Positions 1,402 through 58,443 of a stretch of 64,000 bases of DNA are shown in pieces; position 1 is the stretch's first letter, and each line of letters opens with the position of its first letter. The position numbers and the translations under genes were made by a program. The stretch lies in contig REDK01000106.1 of the NCBI GenBank assembly GCA_007693535.1, positions 1-64,000 of the forward strand, read 5' to 3'. Source of the stretch: Chromatiaceae bacterium (GTDB lineage Bacteria; Pseudomonadota; Gammaproteobacteria; Chromatiales; Chromatiaceae). Under the pieces are notes generated by a model. The model was not told where the DNA came from and ran no database searches. It saw only the letters and a program-made list of their open reading frames with translations.

Positions 1402-2148
1402 TCAAAGGCCGCTGTAGAGGCCGCGCTCTGCCGACAGGAACTGCAGCACCGTGCGCACGTAGCCTTGGGTCTCGCGAAACGGCGGGATCTGATTGCCGTA
1501 GCGCTTGACTGCTCCCTCGCCAGCGTTGTAGGCGGCCAGCGCCAGCCGTAGGTCATTGTCGAACATGTCCAGCAGCAGGCGCAGGTAGGTAGCACCGCCG
1601 CGGATGTTCTCGGCCGGGTCCCAGATGTCGCGCACATGAAAGCGCCGGGCGGTCCCCGGCATCAGTTGCATCAGCCCGCAGGCCCCGGCGTGAGACAGGG
1701 CGTCGGGCCGGTAGGCCGACTCGGCCCGGATCACCGCGTGCAGCAGTTCGGCCGGGACCCGGTGGCGGCGTGCGGCGGCCTGGATCAGGCCCTCGTACCG
1801 CGCGCGACGGGTGGCCATCGAGCCACTGACAAGCGGGGCTGGCGGGCGCCGGGCGTAGACATCGGGGTGGGCGTCGAGGGGGTTTCGCAGGCGCGTCTGC
1901 AGGCGTGCCTGAGATTCGGCCTGCCGTCGCCGCAACTCCTCCGAGGAACGCTGGTGTTCGGTCACCAGCCGCGCCGACGAGCGCTTCCATTCCAGTTGCA
2001 GGTTGGGCTTGCTCAGGGGCTCGTCGGAAAAGTAGACGTTACCGTCGGCATCGACGTACTTATAGACATCCGCCCCGGCCGGGGACGCGAGCGCGGCCAC
2101 CAGCCAGGCGGCGAGCAGGAGCAAGCGGCCCGTGCGATTGCGATCCAT
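1402..2148 (-). CDS. Lytic transglycosylase with N-terminal DUF4124 domain
   Basis: Cleaves peptidoglycan glycan strands in the periplasm. The 248-residue protein has a signal peptide (LLLLAAWLVAALASPAGA), then a short DUF4124-type segment (VYKYVDADGNVYFSDEP, residues 28-44), a charged linker rich in Arg, Gln and Glu, and a C-terminal SLT domain from about residue 118. The SLT signatures are visible: catalytic Glu143 in RAESAY, GLMQLMPGTA at 158-167, and AAYNAGEGAV. A DUF4124 segment followed by SLT is a common proteobacterial arrangement. The ATG at 2148 begins the signal peptide. It is transcribed towards metH, but the wide gap gives no strong reason to call an operon. Confidence 0.9.
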   Translation of the reverse strand: MDRNRTGRLLLLAAWLVAALASPAGADVYKYVDADGNVYFSDEPLSKPNLQLEWKRSSARLVTEHQRSSEELRRRQAESQARLQTRLRNPLDAHPDVYARRPPAPLVSGSMATRRARYEGLIQAAARRHRVPAELLHAVIRAESAYRPDALSHAGACGLMQLMPGTARRFHVRDIWDPAENIRGGATYLRLLLDMFDNDLRLALAAYNAGEGAVKRYGNQIPPFRETQGYVRTVLQFLSAERGLYSGL

Positions 2149-37981: not shown

Positions 37982-38032
37982 CCTGTTACAGCAGATCACC
38001 AGGAATACCCGAGGAGATTACTGCGTCAGCCT

Positions 38033-39924
<1,892 letters not shown>

Positions 39925-50092: not shown

Positions 50093-52014
50093 TAGGTAGT
50101 TCAATTTGTGCCAAAAACGCCCTCGGCCGCTCATGCAGAATAGGTGTTTAGCGGACAGAGCGGATAGCCGGCTTGAAGAAGCACGCCGAACTCTACACAA
50201 TTCTTGGATCTGCGAGCACACCGCTGCCCCCAACGTGGCGGGCATCCGATCTGAGGTTCGACGCGCATGAACGATCTGAAGACCCCCATGTCCCGGCTGC
50301 TCCGTCTGTTTGGCGACGCGCGCGACCGCTGGAGAACCAAGGCGCTGGAGCGGCAGAAGCGCTTGCGTGCGGCGCAGGTGCGCATTCGCGACTTGGAGGA
50401 CAGCCGTGCCTACTGTAAAGCGCGGGCCTTGGCGGCTGAAGGCCAAGCACCGGCGAGCGCCGCATCCGGGGGTGAAACCGACGAGGAACGTGGCGAGGAG
50501 CCGCCCATGGCGCTGGTCCCGACGCGTCTTGCCAACCACCATCATTCCCTGGAGGTGATGCAGCTCAGTCTGCAGTTGTACCTGCACGCCAGCTTCGGTT
50601 GTCGCGGGGTCAGTGGGGTGCTGCGCCTGTTGGCAGGCTACCTGCCGCTGGGTGTCCCCGCCTCGACCACCGTGCTGAATTGGTGCTGTCGGTTGGGTTT
50701 GGCCCGCTTGCAGCGCCCCCTGCCGCAGCGCGACGATTGGATTTTCGTCATTGATGAGACGGTGGGCCTGGGTGCGCTGAAATGCTTGGTTGTGCTCGGC
50801 ATTCCCGTCGCCCGGTTGGCCGAGACCGGCTATTCGCCACGGCATGGCGACATGACGGTGCTGGCCGTCGAGATGACGGTCAAGAGTACCGGTCTTTGGG
50901 TGGCGGCGGTGCTGGAACAGCTGAGCGCGCGGACGGGTGTGCCGGTGCAGATCGTCGCCGATCACGGCAGCGACGTGCGCAAGGGCATCGCCTTGTTTCG
51001 CCAACAGGCGCCGAGCTGTGTGGAGACCTATGACATCTCCCATGCCATCGCCACGCACCTGAAGGCGCACTGGCGCGACGACGCGCACTGGCAGGCGTTT
51101 TTGAAGCAGGCCGGTGCGACCTTGAGCCACTTTCAACAAACCGACCTGGCGTTTCTGCTCCCGCCGCGCCAGCGCACCAAAGCGCGTGACATGGCGCTGG
51201 ATGCCCATGTTGACTGGGCGCAGCGCCTGATCGGCTATCACGATCAGGGCGACTTCAGCAGCACTGGGCTGCCGTGCGTCTTCACCGCCAATGCCTGGGC
51301 ACAGTTGTGCACGGCCCGGGGCAAGCGGCGTGTCGAACCCTTGCGTGCCCTGATCGGAACGCACTACGAGACACGTGCGGCGTTGTGCGAGGCACTGCAT
51401 GCGGCCGGTGCCACGGCGCTGGACGACCTCGATGACACCTTCTGGCGCTTGGCCGATCGGGGCTATGCGCGTTTTCTCCAGGCGTTTGCCTGGGTCTTGC
51501 CGTATCGCGCGCGCTTGCCCGAGTGGACGCAGACGATCGCCGTGTCCAAGACCATCCAGACGGTTCTGAAAACCCGGGGCCTCTCGCGCGCCGCACCGGC
51601 GGTGGTGCAGGCCGAGTTGGCTGCGCAGGGACCGCTGGCGGCCCCGGTGGCCGAGTTCCGGACGCGGCTACTCCAGCACCTCGAACACGAGGCGGCCAAG
51701 CTTCCCGCCGGGGCGACCTGGCTGGCGTCCTCCGATATCATCGAATCGGTTTTCGGCCATTACAAAGCCTTCACCGCCCGCGGCCCGCTCAAAGAAGTCG
51801 GCAGGTTCGTGCTGCTGATTCCGGCCTTCCTCTGCGAGCTCACTGCCCCGGTCATCCACGAGGCGATGACATCGGTGCGCACCATCGATGTCGAGCGGTG
51901 GGTCCACATGCACCTCGGGCCCTCCATGCTCGCACGCCGTCGGCGTGCCCTGAGACCGGCCATGAAAACTGCATGAACATTTCTCGGCCTTCCGATGGGA
52001 AATTGAACAGCCTA
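50093..52014 (+). mobile_element. Complete insertion sequence (1922 bp) between puhB and puhC
   Basis: Bounded by imperfect inverted repeats: TAGGTAGTTCAATTT at 50093-50107 and AAATTGAACAGCCTA at 52000-52014 (13 of 15 positions match when inverted). Both ends are flanked by the direct repeat CCTGCGGCC, a 9-bp target duplication. It carries one full-length transposase gene. The intact ends, perfect duplication and open frame indicate recent insertion. The family was not assigned by name. It interrupts the puhABC order. Confidence 0.9.
50267..51976 (+). CDS. Transposase (DDE type)
   Basis: A 569-residue transposase filling the insertion sequence. It has an N-terminal coiled-coil region (WRTKALERQKRLRAAQVRIR), then a DDE-like core. 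Candidate acidic residues are Asp in FVIDETVG, Asp in IVADHGSDVRKG and Glu in SDIIESVFGHYK; the last resembles the 'D-I-I-E' context of several IS families. The C-terminal end is RRRRALRPAMKTA. Frame uninterrupted, so probably active. The left end of the element leaves 160 bp of leader, which may hold its promoter. Confidence 0.88.
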   Translation: MNDLKTPMSRLLRLFGDARDRWRTKALERQKRLRAAQVRIRDLEDSRAYCKARALAAEGQAPASAASGGETDEERGEEPPMALVPTRLANHHHSLEVMQLSLQLYLHASFGCRGVSGVLRLLAGYLPLGVPASTTVLNWCCRLGLARLQRPLPQRDDWIFVIDETVGLGALKCLVVLGIPVARLAETGYSPRHGDMTVLAVEMTVKSTGLWVAAVLEQLSARTGVPVQIVADHGSDVRKGIALFRQQAPSCVETYDISHAIATHLKAHWRDDAHWQAFLKQAGATLSHFQQTDLAFLLPPRQRTKARDMALDAHVDWAQRLIGYHDQGDFSSTGLPCVFTANAWAQLCTARGKRRVEPLRALIGTHYETRAALCEALHAAGATALDDLDDTFWRLADRGYARFLQAFAWVLPYRARLPEWTQTIAVSKTIQTVLKTRGLSRAAPAVVQAELAAQGPLAAPVAEFRTRLLQHLEHEAAKLPAGATWLASSDIIESVFGHYKAFTARGPLKEVGRFVLLIPAFLCELTAPVIHEAMTSVRTIDVERWVHMHLGPSMLARRRRALRPAMKTA

Positions 52015-52818: not shown

Positions 52819-52881
52819 TGGCGAGGTGATGGTCGTGCCGCCACTGCCTTGCATCGTCGCCGGCTTGCTCCGACCGCATTC

Positions 52882-53799
52882 ATGCTCAGCTATACGCTAG
52901 CGATTGGCTATGCGCTGTTCCTCTGGTGGTTCAGCACCGGCGCCATTCTGTACCTCGATGGCCTGCCCCGGCACACCTATGGCCGCAGCATGCTTGGCGC
53001 CACCGGGGTGCTGCTTCTCTCAATTGTCGCCCTGATCCTGGTCCGCGCGCGCGCTGACCTGCTTGGGGCCTACGTCGGCTTTACTGCCGGCGTATTGATC
53101 TGGGGTTGGCTGGAGATGGCCTACTTCATGGGCTTCATCACCGGTCCACGCAAGACACCATGCCCGCCGGGCTGTCGCGGCTGGGAACGCTTTCGGCTGG
53201 CCCTGCAGACTAGTCTCTACCACGAGTTGGTGCTGATCGGTATTGCTGCCCTGATCATCCGGCTGACCTGGGGGGCGTCGAATCAGGTTGGCATCTGGAC
53301 CTTCGTGATCCTCTGGGTGATGCGCTGGAGCGCCAAGCTCAACCTGTTCTTGGGGGCGCCCAATCTCAACGAGGACTGGCTGCCCGAGCATGTCCGCTTC
53401 GTCACCAGCTATCTCAGCAAGCGGCCGATGAATCTGCTGTTCCCGGTCTCGGTCAGCGTAGCCACCGTGGTCATGACCCTGCTGGTGGTGACGGCCCTGG
53501 AGGTTCCCACTAACGGTTTTCGCGGGGTCTCGCTGATCCTCGCCGCCACCCTGCTGGCGCTGGCGATCCTGGAACACTGGTTTCTGGTGTTGCCGCTCAC
53601 CGATGGTGCCCTCTGGAACTGGGCCACCGGTGCGCGCGACCGCTATCTGGCCAGCATGCCCCCGGCAGCCAGCGGTGGGGTAGGGCAGCGGTTCCAGGCG
53701 CCTGCCGGCGCTGCTGTGCCCACCTCCGACGGCAGCGGGCAGCCGGCGCTGAGCACCGCTCGCGACCCCAGCCTCGACGCCAACGGTGAACGCTCCTAA
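52882..53799 (+). CDS. puhE: Photosynthetic complex assembly protein PuhE
   Basis: Polytopic membrane protein (DUF3623) that modulates reaction-centre and bacteriochlorophyll levels in Rhodobacter. The 305-residue product shows about seven helices and the signature FLWWFSTGAILYLDGLPRHT near the start. GWLEMAYFMGFITGPRKTPC and GAPNLNEDWLPEHVRF follow, with a hydrophilic Pro/Ser tail. I start at the ATG at 52882; TTG at 52849 would add 11 residues. It follows puhC directly, with no acsF between them. Confidence 0.9.
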   Translation: MLSYTLAIGYALFLWWFSTGAILYLDGLPRHTYGRSMLGATGVLLLSIVALILVRARADLLGAYVGFTAGVLIWGWLEMAYFMGFITGPRKTPCPPGCRGWERFRLALQTSLYHELVLIGIAALIIRLTWGASNQVGIWTFVILWVMRWSAKLNLFLGAPNLNEDWLPEHVRFVTSYLSKRPMNLLFPVSVSVATVVMTLLVVTALEVPTNGFRGVSLILAATLLALAILEHWFLVLPLTDGALWNWATGARDRYLASMPPAASGGVGQRFQAPAGAAVPTSDGSGQPALSTARDPSLDANGERS

Positions 53800-54159
53800 C
53801 GCCTCGGCACGTCTGCTTTGGGCCTCGGGTGCGCCGCACCGGTTGCCGGCGGTTGGCCCCCGCTTGTGGTAGCCCGGGCTTGAACAGGGTCGCAACCGCT
53901 TCCCGCAAGCCGCTGCCAAGGGACCGCGAGCGTCGGCGCGGGGCCGCCGGTTAGCTTGTCGGCTTCTTCCCGACGGACACCTTTGGCAGCCTTCCCGCCC
54001 CCGCGCGCGGTGATCCAGATCGCAATCGCCGCTGGTCAAGTTGCGGTATCGCCGACGCCATTGATCAGGTTAACCTATGGTGAAGTCCGGTTACCCGCGG
54101 CGCGCTCGGAAGGCTAGCGCCGGAAACCAGGCATGGACGGAACGCCCGATCCGCCGAGG

Positions 54160-54201
54160 TTGATGTGAGTCAACGCCGCTTCGCCCCGTCTTGGCTACTT
54201 T
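54160..54201 (+). promoter_or_regulatory. FNR-box-like site with spaced -10
   Basis: TTGAT-GTGA-GTCAA (54160-54173) matches the FNR consensus TTGAT-N4-ATCAA at 9 of 10 positions. TACTTT (54196-54201) lies where a class II FNR promoter, with the site centred at -41.5, would place its -10, giving a start near 54208. FNR-type activation under low oxygen would suit the adjacent bchE-hemN genes, but the start lies about 370 nt upstream of bchE. Confidence 0.45.
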
Positions 54202-54207
54202 ACCTGG

Positions 54208-54260
54208 GTATCCACCGATCAGGCCTAGCGACCCTTGCCGGGGTTCGCTCGGGTCTTTTT
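54208..54260 (+). ncRNA. Candidate short RNA or attenuator upstream of bchE
   Basis: From the predicted start at 54208 to a terminator-like end is about 53 nt. Near the end, AGCGACCC (54227-54234) can pair with GGGTTCGCT (54241-54249) with one bulge, or GACCC (54230-54234) with GGGTC (54251-54255) directly before TTTTT (54256-54260). Either a small RNA or a leader attenuator is possible. No homologue recognised; entirely inferred. Confidence 0.3.
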
Positions 54261-54575
54261 GTATCACCGCCGCGTCATCCTGAAGAGGCAATGATCCCGC
54301 GACATCGATGCCAACCGGCGCGATCGATCCCAGTCTGCGGCGATCACAGACAGCGCTCCGGCCCTGGCCCGGCCTACCTAGCCCCCGCGCCCCGCCCGTC
54401 GGCCCCAGCGATCAGCCGCTGGTGCCGACCTTGCCTGCAGCTCGCCGCAGCCCCGGCCAGTATTCCCGCCAGCAGCTTCGCGCTGCTGCCCCGCCGGTCC
54501 AGTCGATGGGGCCTGCGACCGGCCCTGCGATTGACGCGCGACCGCCTATTCTACCGTGTCCCCGGAGTCTGACTC

Positions 54576-56213
54576 ATGCGCATCCTGATGATCCAACCGA
54601 ACTACCATTCCGGCGGCGCCGAGATCGCCGGTAACTGGCCGGCCGGTTGGGTCCCTTATATCGGTGGTGCGCTTAAGCACGCGGGCTACCAGAATGTGCG
54701 TTTCATCGATGCGATGGTCGATGAAACCGATGATGACAGCCTCCGCGAGATCATCGCCAAGAACGAGCCCGATGTGGTCATGGCCACGGCCATCACGCCA
54801 ATGATCTACAAGGCCCAGACCACCTTGCAGATCGCCAAAGAAGCACGCCCCGATTGCGTCACGATCCTTGGCGGAGTGCATCCCACCTTTATGTATTCTC
54901 AGGTGCTGCACGAGGCACCCTGGATCGACTATATCGTGCGCGGTGAGGGCGAGCGGATCGTTGTGAATCTGATGCGCGCGATTGCGGATGGCAGCCATCG
55001 CAAGGAGCGTGATCGGATTCGCGGACTCGCCTTCCTCGACGGCGATCAGGTCGTTGCCACCCCGGCCGAGCCGGTCATCGACAATCTCGACGAACTTACC
55101 CCGGACTGGTCGCTGCTGGAGTGGGATAAGTACATCTATATCCCGCTCAACACCCGGGTCGCAGTCCCCAATTATGCCCGCGGCTGCCCATTTACCTGCC
55201 GCTTCTGCTCGCAGTGGAAGTTCTGGCGCAAGTATCGCCACCGCGATCCGGTGAAATTCGTCGATGAGGTCGAGACGTTGGTGCGCGACCACAAGGTCGG
55301 CTTCATGATCCTCGCTGACGAGGAGCCCACCATCATCCAGTCCAAGTTCGTCGCCTTGTGCGAGGAGCTGATCCGGCGCAAGCTGCCGTTGCACTGGGGT
55401 ATCAACACCCGCGTCACCGACATCATGCGCGATCGCGAGTTGCTGCCGCTCTATCGCAAGGCCGGGCTGGTGCATGTCTCCCTGGGCACCGAGGCAGCGG
55501 CCCAGTTGAATCTGGATGTATTCCGCAAGCAGACTACCGTCGAGCAGAACAAACTGGCGGTGAAGCTGCTTAAGGATGCCGGCATCGTCGCCGAGGTCCA
55601 GTTCATCATGGGCCTGGAGAACGAAACTAAGGAGACCATCGAGGAGACCTTCCGCCTGGCCATGGACTGGAATCCAGACATGGTCAACTGGAATATGTAC
55701 ACGCCCTGGCCGTTCGCCGAATTGTTCGAAGACCTCGGCGACAAGGTCGAGGTACGTGATTATTCCAAGTACAATTTTGTGACGCCGATCATGAAGCCCG
55801 AGGCGATGAGCCGCGAGGACGTGCTCAAGGGCGTGCTGAAGAATTACGGCCGCTTCTATATGAACCGAACCTTCTTCCACTATCCGTGGATTCGGGACAA
55901 GTTCAAGCGCCGTTACATGCTGGGGTGTTTGAAGGCCTTTGCTACGACCACCATCAGCAAGAAGTTCTACGATCTCGAACGCCTGAAGTACAAAGGCGGC
56001 ATGACCACCGAGGTGGACCTGGGCTTCGACGAGTCCAAGATCCTGTCCAAGGAGGACATTGCCAAGCTCAAGGCCGAGCGTCCCGATCTGTCCGCGGACA
56101 TCGACTTCACCGGCGTCAAGGGCCGGGGACCGGTGACCGCAGTTTCTGCCTGCGGTGCCCCGAATGAGCTGAAGGTGGACGAGCGCAAGGTCGCTGTCGC
56201 CGAAACCAACTGA
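54576..56213 (+). CDS. bchE: Anaerobic Mg-protoporphyrin IX monomethyl ester cyclase
   Basis: Oxygen-independent formation of the isocyclic ring E of bacteriochlorophyll, a cobalamin-dependent radical-SAM enzyme using water as oxygen source. The 545-residue protein has an N-terminal B12-binding domain (MRILMIQPNYHSGGAEIAGN, VTILGGVHPTFM). The radical-SAM cysteines are Cys204, Cys208 and Cys211 in ARGCPFTCRFCSQWKFWRKY. The C-terminal helical region is FYMNRTFFHYPWIRDKFKRR. Start MRILMIQPN at the ATG at 54576. Followed after 9 bp by hemN. Confidence 0.96.
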   Translation: MRILMIQPNYHSGGAEIAGNWPAGWVPYIGGALKHAGYQNVRFIDAMVDETDDDSLREIIAKNEPDVVMATAITPMIYKAQTTLQIAKEARPDCVTILGGVHPTFMYSQVLHEAPWIDYIVRGEGERIVVNLMRAIADGSHRKERDRIRGLAFLDGDQVVATPAEPVIDNLDELTPDWSLLEWDKYIYIPLNTRVAVPNYARGCPFTCRFCSQWKFWRKYRHRDPVKFVDEVETLVRDHKVGFMILADEEPTIIQSKFVALCEELIRRKLPLHWGINTRVTDIMRDRELLPLYRKAGLVHVSLGTEAAAQLNLDVFRKQTTVEQNKLAVKLLKDAGIVAEVQFIMGLENETKETIEETFRLAMDWNPDMVNWNMYTPWPFAELFEDLGDKVEVRDYSKYNFVTPIMKPEAMSREDVLKGVLKNYGRFYMNRTFFHYPWIRDKFKRRYMLGCLKAFATTTISKKFYDLERLKYKGGMTTEVDLGFDESKILSKEDIAKLKAERPDLSADIDFTGVKGRGPVTAVSACGAPNELKVDERKVAVAETN

Positions 56214-56222
56214 GGCCACTCG

Positions 56223-57587
56223 ATGTCCAGTGCAGCGCCGACGGAGATCTCCCCGGAACAGCTAGCGCAGTTTGCCAGGCTTGGTCCTCAATACCCGCGG
56301 TCGGTACCGATGCCGGCCTGGACGGCAGGCTTCGACGGCGCTGATTACGCCGCCGTGCTGCGCTCAGTCGCGGAGCGACCAGAGGAGACGTTGTCGCTGT
56401 ATGTGCACTTGCCCTTTTGTCCAGGGCGCTGCCTGTACTGCGGCTGTAATACCACCATCACCCACGACAGCAGTCGCGTCGACCGCTATCTGGATGCGCT
56501 GGAACACGAGATGGCGATGGTCGCGGCACTGGTCGACAGCGATCGCGATGTGCTGCAGTTGCACCTCGGCGGGGGTACGCCGAATTATCTCAACGATGCC
56601 CAGCTGACTCGGCTGACGGAGATGCTGGAACGGCGCTTTCGCATCCTCTCCGACACCGATCAGTCGATCGAATGCGACCCGCGCCGGACCTCGGCCGGAC
56701 AACTGGAACTCCTGCATGCCCTGGGCTACCGGCGGATCACCTTCGGCGTCCAGGACTTGGAGCCGCAGGTGCAGCGGGCAATCGGTCGTATCCAATCGGT
56801 GGAACTCATTCGCGATGTCTATTGGATGGCGCGCGAGATTGGCTTCGAGACCATCGCCTTTGATCTCATCTACGGCCTGCCGGAACAGACCCAGGACAGT
56901 TTTCAGAAGACCTTGGATGCGGTGATCGAACTGTTGCCGGACCGGGTCACCTGCTTCGGGTATTCCCGGGTGCCCGGCCGCGGTCCACATCAGCATGCGA
57001 TCGACGTGCACCGACTGCCGAGTGCGGTGGATCGTCAGATCCTGTTTCACCGCGCGGTGCAGAGCTTTACCGATGCCGGTTATGCCTGGATCGGCCTCGA
57101 CGCCTTCGCGCTGGATACTGACGAACTGACCCAGGCCCAGGACGAGGGCCGCCTATTCCGTAATTGCACCGGCTATACCACCTGCCCCACTGCCCACAGT
57201 ATCGGCTTCGGCACTGGCGCCGTTGGCGAGGTCGCGGGCAATTGCGTGCAGAACGAGACCAGTCTGCGCCAGTGGCAGGCCCTGATCGAGGCCGGTCAGC
57301 TACCCATCGCCCGTGGCCATCGGCTCAACCTGACCGACCGCCGCCGGCGTGATGCCATCGCTCACATGATCTGCAATCTGGAACTGCCGGCCGATCTGGC
57401 CTGCGGTTCCCTCGATGACGAGTATGCCCGGCTGGCTGGCTATGCCGCCGATGGGCTGGTGGAGGTCGCTCCGGATCGCCTGCGCATCACCCCGGCCGGG
57501 CGCTATTTCCTGCGCACCCTGTGTACTGAGCACGACGCCTATTTCGCCTGGGATCGTGCCCGTTGGCATTTTTCGCGCACGCTGTAG
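56223..57587 (+). CDS. hemN: Oxygen-independent coproporphyrinogen III oxidase
   Basis: Radical-SAM decarboxylation of two propionates of coproporphyrinogen III, giving protoporphyrinogen IX without oxygen. The 454-residue protein has the HemN leader and VHLPFCPGRCLYCGCNT with Cys66, Cys70, Cys73 and the extra Cys75 typical of true HemN. HLGGGTPNYL, GVQDLEPQVQRAIGRIQ, DLIYGLPEQTQDSF and the C-terminal HemN domain (ITPAGRYFLRTLC) follow. Nine bp after bchE, so the two anaerobic tetrapyrrole enzymes are probably co-transcribed. Confidence 0.95.
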   Translation: MSSAAPTEISPEQLAQFARLGPQYPRSVPMPAWTAGFDGADYAAVLRSVAERPEETLSLYVHLPFCPGRCLYCGCNTTITHDSSRVDRYLDALEHEMAMVAALVDSDRDVLQLHLGGGTPNYLNDAQLTRLTEMLERRFRILSDTDQSIECDPRRTSAGQLELLHALGYRRITFGVQDLEPQVQRAIGRIQSVELIRDVYWMAREIGFETIAFDLIYGLPEQTQDSFQKTLDAVIELLPDRVTCFGYSRVPGRGPHQHAIDVHRLPSAVDRQILFHRAVQSFTDAGYAWIGLDAFALDTDELTQAQDEGRLFRNCTGYTTCPTAHSIGFGTGAVGEVAGNCVQNETSLRQWQALIEAGQLPIARGHRLNLTDRRRRDAIAHMICNLELPADLACGSLDDEYARLAGYAADGLVEVAPDRLRITPAGRYFLRTLCTEHDAYFAWDRARWHFSRTL

Positions 57588-57624: not shown

Positions 57625-57837
57625 GGTAGCGCCCGCGCCCTGCTCATTGCTGCGGGCCACCATGCCCGTTGATCGTAGCGGGCCCTGATCGTATCGGCGC
57701 GGCTCGTCCACGGCCTGGATGCCCCCCGGCCGCTTCACGTCCGTCCGTTGCTCCCTGCCGCTGGCAGGGCCGTTCGGGGCCTGACCATTGCCCCACGGGC
57801 GCCAGCCCGGCCCGCCGTCAGTCCCAGCCTACCGACC

Positions 57838-58443
57838 ATGAACCATCCTGAGCCCCTGCCGGACACCGGCGTTGCCCGCATCGGTCCCAATGCCATCATC
57901 CGTGTCGCCGAGGCCTTGCAGGCCAGCGATGGGCCCGCTGCCGAGGTATTTGCCGCGGCCGGTCTCAGCCATTATCTGACGCAGCCGCCCGCGGCGATGG
58001 TGCTGGAGACCGAGGTCATCGCCCTGCAGCAGGCCCTGCGGGCGACTCTCGACCGGGCCGCGGCCAGTGCCGTGAATCTCGATGCTGGCCGCCGTACCGG
58101 CGACTATCTGCTTGCCGTTCGGATCCCCAAAGCGGCCCAACGGGTGCTGCGGCTGCTGCCCCCAAGGCCGGCGGCCCGGTTGCTGCTCAAGGCAGTCGGC
58201 CAGCATGCCTGGACCTTCGCCGGCAGCGGACGCTTCGATTGCGAGGCTGGCCAGCCGTTGCGGGTGACCATCGCCGATTGCCCGACCTGCCGCGGGGCCA
58301 GTGCCGGCTTCCCGGTCTGCGATTTCTATTGCGGGGCCTTCGAGCGTCTGTTCCAGACCCTGGTCAGCCCGCGGGCGCGCGTGCAGGAGGTCGCCTGCGG
58401 GGCCATGGGGGCAGCGGCCTGCGTCTTCGAGATCACCTGGTAA
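57838..58443 (+). CDS. bchJ: Bacteriochlorophyll synthesis protein BchJ
   Basis: V4R-domain protein once proposed as the 8-vinyl reductase; later work on other species suggests an accessory, possibly substrate-handling role. The 201-residue product begins MNHPEPLPDTGVARIGPNAI. It has the V4R core FAGSGRFDCEAGQPLRVTIA and the cysteine-rich site CPTCRGASAGFPVCDFYCGA. The ATG at 57838 fits the family; 30 in-frame codons upstream are low-complexity. Separated from hemN by 250 bp, it could have its own promoter. It converges with the M61 peptidase gene. Confidence 0.9.
   Translation: MNHPEPLPDTGVARIGPNAIIRVAEALQASDGPAAEVFAAAGLSHYLTQPPAAMVLETEVIALQQALRATLDRAAASAVNLDAGRRTGDYLLAVRIPKAAQRVLRLLPPRPAARLLLKAVGQHAWTFAGSGRFDCEAGQPLRVTIADCPTCRGASAGFPVCDFYCGAFERLFQTLVSPRARVQEVACGAMGAAACVFEITW

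Follow-up and report, generated by a model that had tools for sequence, protein, structure and literature searches.

A probable FNR-activated promoter and an early terminator-like hairpin upstream of bchE in a Chromatiaceae bacterium

Results

Genes and features of the puhE-bchE gap

The sequence analysed here (the window) is a stretch of 64,000 nucleotides, positions 1 to 64,000 of contig REDK01000106.1 from the assembly GCA_007693535.1 of a Chromatiaceae bacterium. The genes from puhA to bchJ all lie on the forward strand, a gap of 776 nt separates puhE from bchE, and hemN begins 9 nt past bchE (Table 1). The bchJ frame is given from the first position of the scanned stretch, and its start codon (~57826) is provisional.

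Further upstream, a 569-aa open frame (50267-51976, +) lies between puhB, so labelled by its position, and puhC. This frame has no Pfam or NCBIfam match, is present as a single copy in the genome, and is bracketed by an imperfect 15-nt inverted pair (50093-50107 / 52000-52014, 1.9 kb apart; one among 20 listed pairs). In the named locus L001, the puhB and puhC matches are ~100 nt apart. The frame looks like an inserted element within the puh gene row.

Table 1. Positions of the genes and of the observed and predicted features in and around the puhE-bchE gap (window coordinates).
Feature	Position	Strand	Basis or remark
puhA	from 48482	+	NCBIfam model above cut-off
puhC	from 52270	+	NCBIfam model above cut-off
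puhE, photosynthetic complex assembly protein, upstream neighbour	52849..53799	+	TIGR03055, 306.5 bits, cut-off 164
FNR box TTGATGTGAGTCAA	54160-54173	+	consensus match; same -10 distance upstream of bchE in relatives
-10-like element TACTTT	54196-54201	+	class II spacing to FNR box
Predicted transcription start	54208	+	inferred from class II spacing
Predicted 368-nt 5' leader of bchE mRNA	54208..54575	+	extent inferred from predicted start
Intrinsic-terminator-like hairpin and T5	54221-54256 (hairpin), 54256-54260 (T5)	+	+14 to +53 of predicted transcript
bchE, B12-binding radical SAM anaerobic cyclase	54576..56213	+	TIGR02026, 788 bits, cut-off 481
hemN, oxygen-independent coproporphyrinogen III oxidase	56223..57587	+	TIGR00538, 407 bits, cut-off 325
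bchJ, bacteriochlorophyll 4-vinyl reductase	57826..58443	+	TIGR02019, 188 bits, cut-off 74

An FNR box at class II spacing

The E. coli FNR consensus is TTGAT-N4-ATCAA, and class II sites are centred at -41.5. When TTGATGTGAGTCAA was compared with the motif TTGATNNNNATCAA, nine of the ten positions matched. TACTTT starts 36 nt after the start of the box, which is the -10 position of a class II site, although as a -10 element it is weak (3/6 matches to TATAAT). With TACTTT placed at -12 to -7, the box centre falls at -41.5 and the predicted +1 at 54208. Both the 9/10 box and the exactly spaced TACTTT that the first-pass annotation had described are thus present. A loose scan of 1.8 kb found no sigma-70 promoter, as expected of a class II site without a -35 element.

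A strong hairpin followed by five T in the early leader

The hairpin folds into a stem of 15 pairs with two one-base bulges (-20.1 kcal/mol); it is a stable GC-rich hairpin directly 5' of a T run, as in an intrinsic terminator. Together with the T5 it ends about 53 nt after the predicted start, close to the ~50 nt given in the first-pass annotation, and the hairpin is larger than was described there. The loose scan of 1.8 kb recovered a five-pair stem only, and its count of terminator-like sites was at chance level (1 vs 1.0 expected). A strict scan, requiring a single hairpin of -15 kcal/mol or lower and then at least five T, found three sites on the forward strand of the window and none on the reverse strand, with 54221-54256 the strongest; ten random 64-kb strands gave four in total, one of them at -20 or lower. 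A terminator score of the d'Aubenton-Carafa form reached 11.5 at 54221-54260, the higher of two positive sites in the window, and was positive at seven sites in ten random 64-kb strands, three of these with at least 10. By both scores no terminator-like site of the window, on either strand, is stronger, and it is the only one with a positive score between puhE and bchE. Folding of 54208-54260 gave -20.7 kcal/mol (z -2.26; 2/200 shuffles equally good), and the whole 368-nt leader was not unusual (z -1.48; 10/100 shuffles equally good).

If transcription starts at 54208, the free 5' end ahead of the stem is 13 nt long. From +1 to +53, the predicted transcript has no ATG or GTG and one TTG, at +28 in the tip of the hairpin.

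Other properties of the leader

A C-rich, G-poor stretch lies at 54341-54480 (C up to 0.53 and G 0.27 per 78 nt). Its C minus G is at best 0.26, and 0.22 is reached by 0.4% of the forward-strand stretches of the window; the signal was weaker in all 20 relatives' leaders compared (highest 0.23). C-rich, G-poor RNA is associated with Rho loading, and a Rho-type role for this stretch is possible.

An open frame in the leader (54291-54569), which shares its phase with a longer GTG frame and ends just 5' of bchE, was rejected as a gene: its codon-position GC is flat (0.71/0.70/0.75, vs 0.59/0.37/0.81 for bchE). It has no NCBIfam or Pfam match. Exact PpsR/CrtJ sites (motif TGT-N12-ACA) were absent from 53700-54700, which has one-mismatch sites at 54260 and 54557; exact matches were found in one of the 15 relatives checked.

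FNR boxes and an FNR protein in the genome

Across the 4.16 Mb scanned, TTGATNNNNRTCAA gave 22 strand-hits at 17 places; the reversed pattern gave 1+1. Half of the 16 other places lie inside open frames of more than 150 aa, so that a box alone is weak evidence. The combination of TTGATNNNNRTCA with TANNNT at box start +36 is much rarer, with three cases genome-wide (reversed-pattern controls 0+0), two of them in this window. One box lies 100 nt 5' of an anaerobic ribonucleotide reductase gene. Another lies 127 nt 5' of a hybrid-cluster-protein gene, whose 200-residue piece scored 314 bits with its best model, below the whole-protein cut-off of 367. A further box, close to where the fnr frame begins, stands 126 nt 5' of an ATG inside that frame; the fnr start is provisional.

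The second combination at class II spacing, TTGATGTCGATCAT with TAATCT (window 38015-38056, -), overlaps the bchF start and points toward ppsR, ~0.8 kb off. The third, TTGATAATTGTCAA with TATGCT, lies at 1776-1817 (-) of L189 (G000:C92), ~100 nt 5' of a 106-aa glycine- and tryptophan-rich, secreted-looking protein.

A Crp-type helix-turn-helix scored above cut-off in five proteins of the genome, of which only L165 was scanned with models, the other four being read by eye. L165 is an FNR protein (NF008365, 297 bits, cut-off 228): it aligns to solved FNR regulators and carries cluster cysteines in its N-terminal ACKSCTLSQLC. A short cysteine motif is also present in L167.

Recurrence of the promoter upstream of bchE

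A BchE search of 210 family genomes gave matches at E up to 1e-100 in 73. For comparison of upstream regions, the 450 nt 5' of bchE were taken from 82 family loci, the window included and the partial matches L097 and L098 left out, and in scoring the boxes a C at position 5 or a G at position 10 counted one half. A box of at least 8.5 was found in 39/82 loci, against a shuffled mean of 1.63. A box of at least 8 with TANNNT at class I or class II spacing was found in 23/82, against a shuffled mean of 0.17; the 82 loci are related, and the 23 do not count as independent cases. This full arrangement occurs in 4 of 19 genera and is absent from 59 of the 82 loci, and in 13 of the 19 genera no locus reaches a box score of 8.5.

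The bchE genes fall into two groups, one like that of the window (75-83% identity, 23 loci) and another at 57-63%. Among the window-like loci, 14/23 (window included) have the class II arrangement, in g23, in g50 and, for g1, in the window alone. L100 scores lower (7.5) with the same arrangement, which is absent from L082, L106, L110, L112, L113, L114, L118 and L164. The g23 and g50 loci would belong to Thiocapsa / Thiocystis, judging by their equal identity and box to named loci. Boxes of the window-like relatives score at most 8/10, weaker than that of the window. The nearest bchE, that of L082 (83%, apparently Thiospirillum), has no box at promoter spacing, which points to gain or loss of the promoter within this bchE group. 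Loss of the box in close relatives had been proposed in the first-pass annotation as the test of its reading, and the outcome is mixed: a suitably spaced box is missing from L082 and from seven g72 loci, but is retained with unchanged spacing in loci of g23 and g50.

In all seven other genomes of the same genus, the different bchE type is preceded by TTGATKCARGGCAA and, at class I spacing, TAATCT. In the named locus L010, a MAG labelled Acetobacteraceae, TTGACCTACATCAA with TATTTT stands at class II spacing, as does the weaker TTGCCCTGGATCAA with TAGCGT in L012; among the named loci L001-L014, no box was listed for L007, L008, L011, L013 and L014. Of the 11 nearest named loci (L001-L011), nine show puhE, bchE and hemN in this order, and bchJ follows in eight of the nine; the named loci L012-L014 and L017 have neither puhE nor hemN beside bchE.

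When the window was aligned with five relatives, TTGA, TCA and GCTA...T were invariant. Past the -10 element, the same six sequences give gaps and scattered columns up to the ribosome-binding region. What is conserved therefore looks like a promoter rather than an RNA.

As to the bchE types themselves, the window genome carries only the window-like one (76-83% like Thiospirillum, Thiocapsa and Thiocystis), the seven other genomes of its genus carry the other type (59-61%; L089-L093, L095, L096), and some g23 and g50 genomes carry both. Such a distribution could come from gene exchange or from loss of one of two old copies.

Conservation of the terminator and of the gap

Relatives were scanned for a hairpin of -10 kcal/mol or lower with at least four T in 41 loci (39 of the 82, with L010 and L012). 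Four of the 41 had one, and only that of the window reached -15; the hairpins of L111 and L116 lie upstream of their own boxes, and L118 has no box. None of the 40 other loci scanned thus has a comparable terminator.

The puhE-bchE gap had no relative above short chance pieces in the 209 other family genomes (DNA search, two best candidates per genome): 197 of the 210 genomes had a hit (E up to 1), and the best hit outside the window was 41 nt long (E 2.6e-4). The search turned up no nearer genome for the species of the window, the nearest bchE among the 210 family genomes being at 83%. Rfam gave no match in the window at gathering scores, nor in 53800-54600 at E up to 5. Neither the sequence nor the structure of the candidate RNA was therefore found conserved in relatives.

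Discussion

The site is probably a class II promoter through which FNR activates bchE-hemN-bchJ; its leader would be 368 nt long, and an early terminator in it probably ends a share of the transcripts. Since the promoter recurs before bchE in relatives without the terminator, it would be that of bchE and not of a small RNA. An FNR-driven promoter is well supported here, as a prediction from sequence, by its conservation and by the genome-encoded FNR. BchE and HemN both serve the same pigment route without needing oxygen, which makes FNR control plausible. Without oxygen, FNR would bind its box beside RNA polymerase on TACTTT, and transcription would start near 54208 and run through the leader into bchE, hemN and bchJ presumably being co-transcribed. 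The terminator at +14 to +53 would end a share of these transcripts, leaving a ~53-nt by-product, and the remaining ones would read through into bchE. The hairpin may also block read-through from the upstream puh genes. Termination at 54260 is expected to be partial and mostly unregulated. Should the terminator prove efficient, it would be odd to find a useful bchE promoter directly 5' of it.

In a rival reading, the site would drive a dedicated ~53-nt small RNA acting in trans on photosynthesis or other mRNAs, with bchE transcribed from elsewhere. In its favour, promoter and terminator point the same way at a distance of 53 nt, and no terminator of the window is stronger; puhE and bchE have no other positive-score site between them. 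However, the promoter is kept upstream of bchE in relatives where the terminator is not, the gap has only short chance pieces as matches in 209 other genomes and is without an Rfam match, and 53 nt that are mostly terminator leave a free 5' end of only 13 nt. We therefore regard such a small RNA as very unlikely, and the first-pass suggestion of an RNA in the spirit of PcrZ finds no support. It is highly improbable that the output is split, with most transcripts from the FNR promoter ending as a ~53-nt RNA that works in trans or ties up a factor and a controlled fraction passing into bchE; one oxygen-sensing promoter would in that case set both a small RNA and the anaerobic cyclase. Very improbable is a chance coincidence of box, -10 element and hairpin in GC-rich intergenic DNA. 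The chance-level loose terminator scan, the weak -10 and the intragenic position of half of the other genome boxes would fit it, but the arrangement is rare genome-wide and recurs upstream of bchE far above shuffled sequences.

The hairpin can also be read in other ways. It could terminate the upstream puh genes and happen to fall within the bchE leader, so that any effect on transcripts started by FNR would be incidental. It is the sole positive-score site between puhE and bchE, but with the FNR promoter ahead of it and the puhE stop ~420 nt away, it cannot act on puh transcripts alone; this reading is doubtful. A conditional attenuator, in which a factor on the early leader chooses between termination at 54260 and read-through, would add a second signal (e.g. 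B12, haem or metal state) to oxygen. A strong terminator in the 368-nt leader of a B12-binding radical SAM enzyme is what one might expect of it, but only 13 nt precede the stem, the sole start-like codon from +1 to +53 is the TTG at the hairpin tip, there is no Rfam match, and the terminator is not seen in relatives. We consider conditional attenuation unlikely. With a start at 54208, neither a sensing sequence nor a reading frame precedes the terminator, so that antitermination by a leader peptide or riboswitch has no room, and a protein or an RNA in trans would be needed. An attenuated bchE leader, the other proposal of the first-pass annotation, is nevertheless nearer to the evidence than a small RNA, as relatives also have the promoter ahead of bchE; it is the leader-peptide or riboswitch type that does not fit. 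Two specific devices were considered and rejected: a riboswitch, for want of an Rfam match, and an antiterminator switch, in which the 5' arm of the stem pairs with the downstream leader at -17.1 kcal/mol but the partner RNA is made after the terminator.

In Rubrivivax, FnrL controls bchE and hemN. R. sphaeroides FnrL binds upstream of bchEJGP, hemN, hemZ and hemA, base changes in the bchE box lowered reporter activity by ~90%, and bchEJGP transcripts were nevertheless up in an fnrL mutant, as described in PMC4263372. According to PMC4634722, bchE is activated by FnrL in R. capsulatus and repressed in R. sphaeroides. The FnrL bchE promoter of the R. sphaeroides bchEJGP operon resembles that of the window in having an FNR-type box directly 5' of bchE; the changed base described there lies at -57 to the start codon, implying a short leader, in contrast to the 368 nt and terminator here (PMC4263372). 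With FNR class II promoters in general, the predicted promoter here shares the box sequence and the -10 spacing, in a genome whose FNR passes NF008365. PcrZ of R. sphaeroides is described as a small RNA active anaerobically and linked to photosynthesis genes (PMC4263372); the candidate RNA here would be ~53 nt, mostly terminator and made from the bchE promoter, and the likeness would lie in the anaerobic activity and the link to photosynthesis genes. Attenuators and premature terminators, the subject of PMC2965389, likewise have an intrinsic terminator between promoter and start codon, but the window offers no antiterminator room ahead of the stem and the arrangement is not seen in its relatives. 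A literature search found nothing on FnrT in Thiocapsa roseopersicina, and among the matches listed none addressed, by title, a small RNA, a transcription start site or a terminator of bchE.

To conclude, the site most likely represents FNR control of bchE, a known kind of control, with a strong terminator-like signal ~50 nt into the message as an unusual extra that may end many transcripts early. The leader terminator is a concrete and readily testable oddity. FNR control of bchE has been tested in Rhodobacter, and our comparative evidence carries it over to the purple sulfur bacteria. It further suggests that FNR-like boxes, with either class I or class II spacing, have come to stand before different types of bchE.
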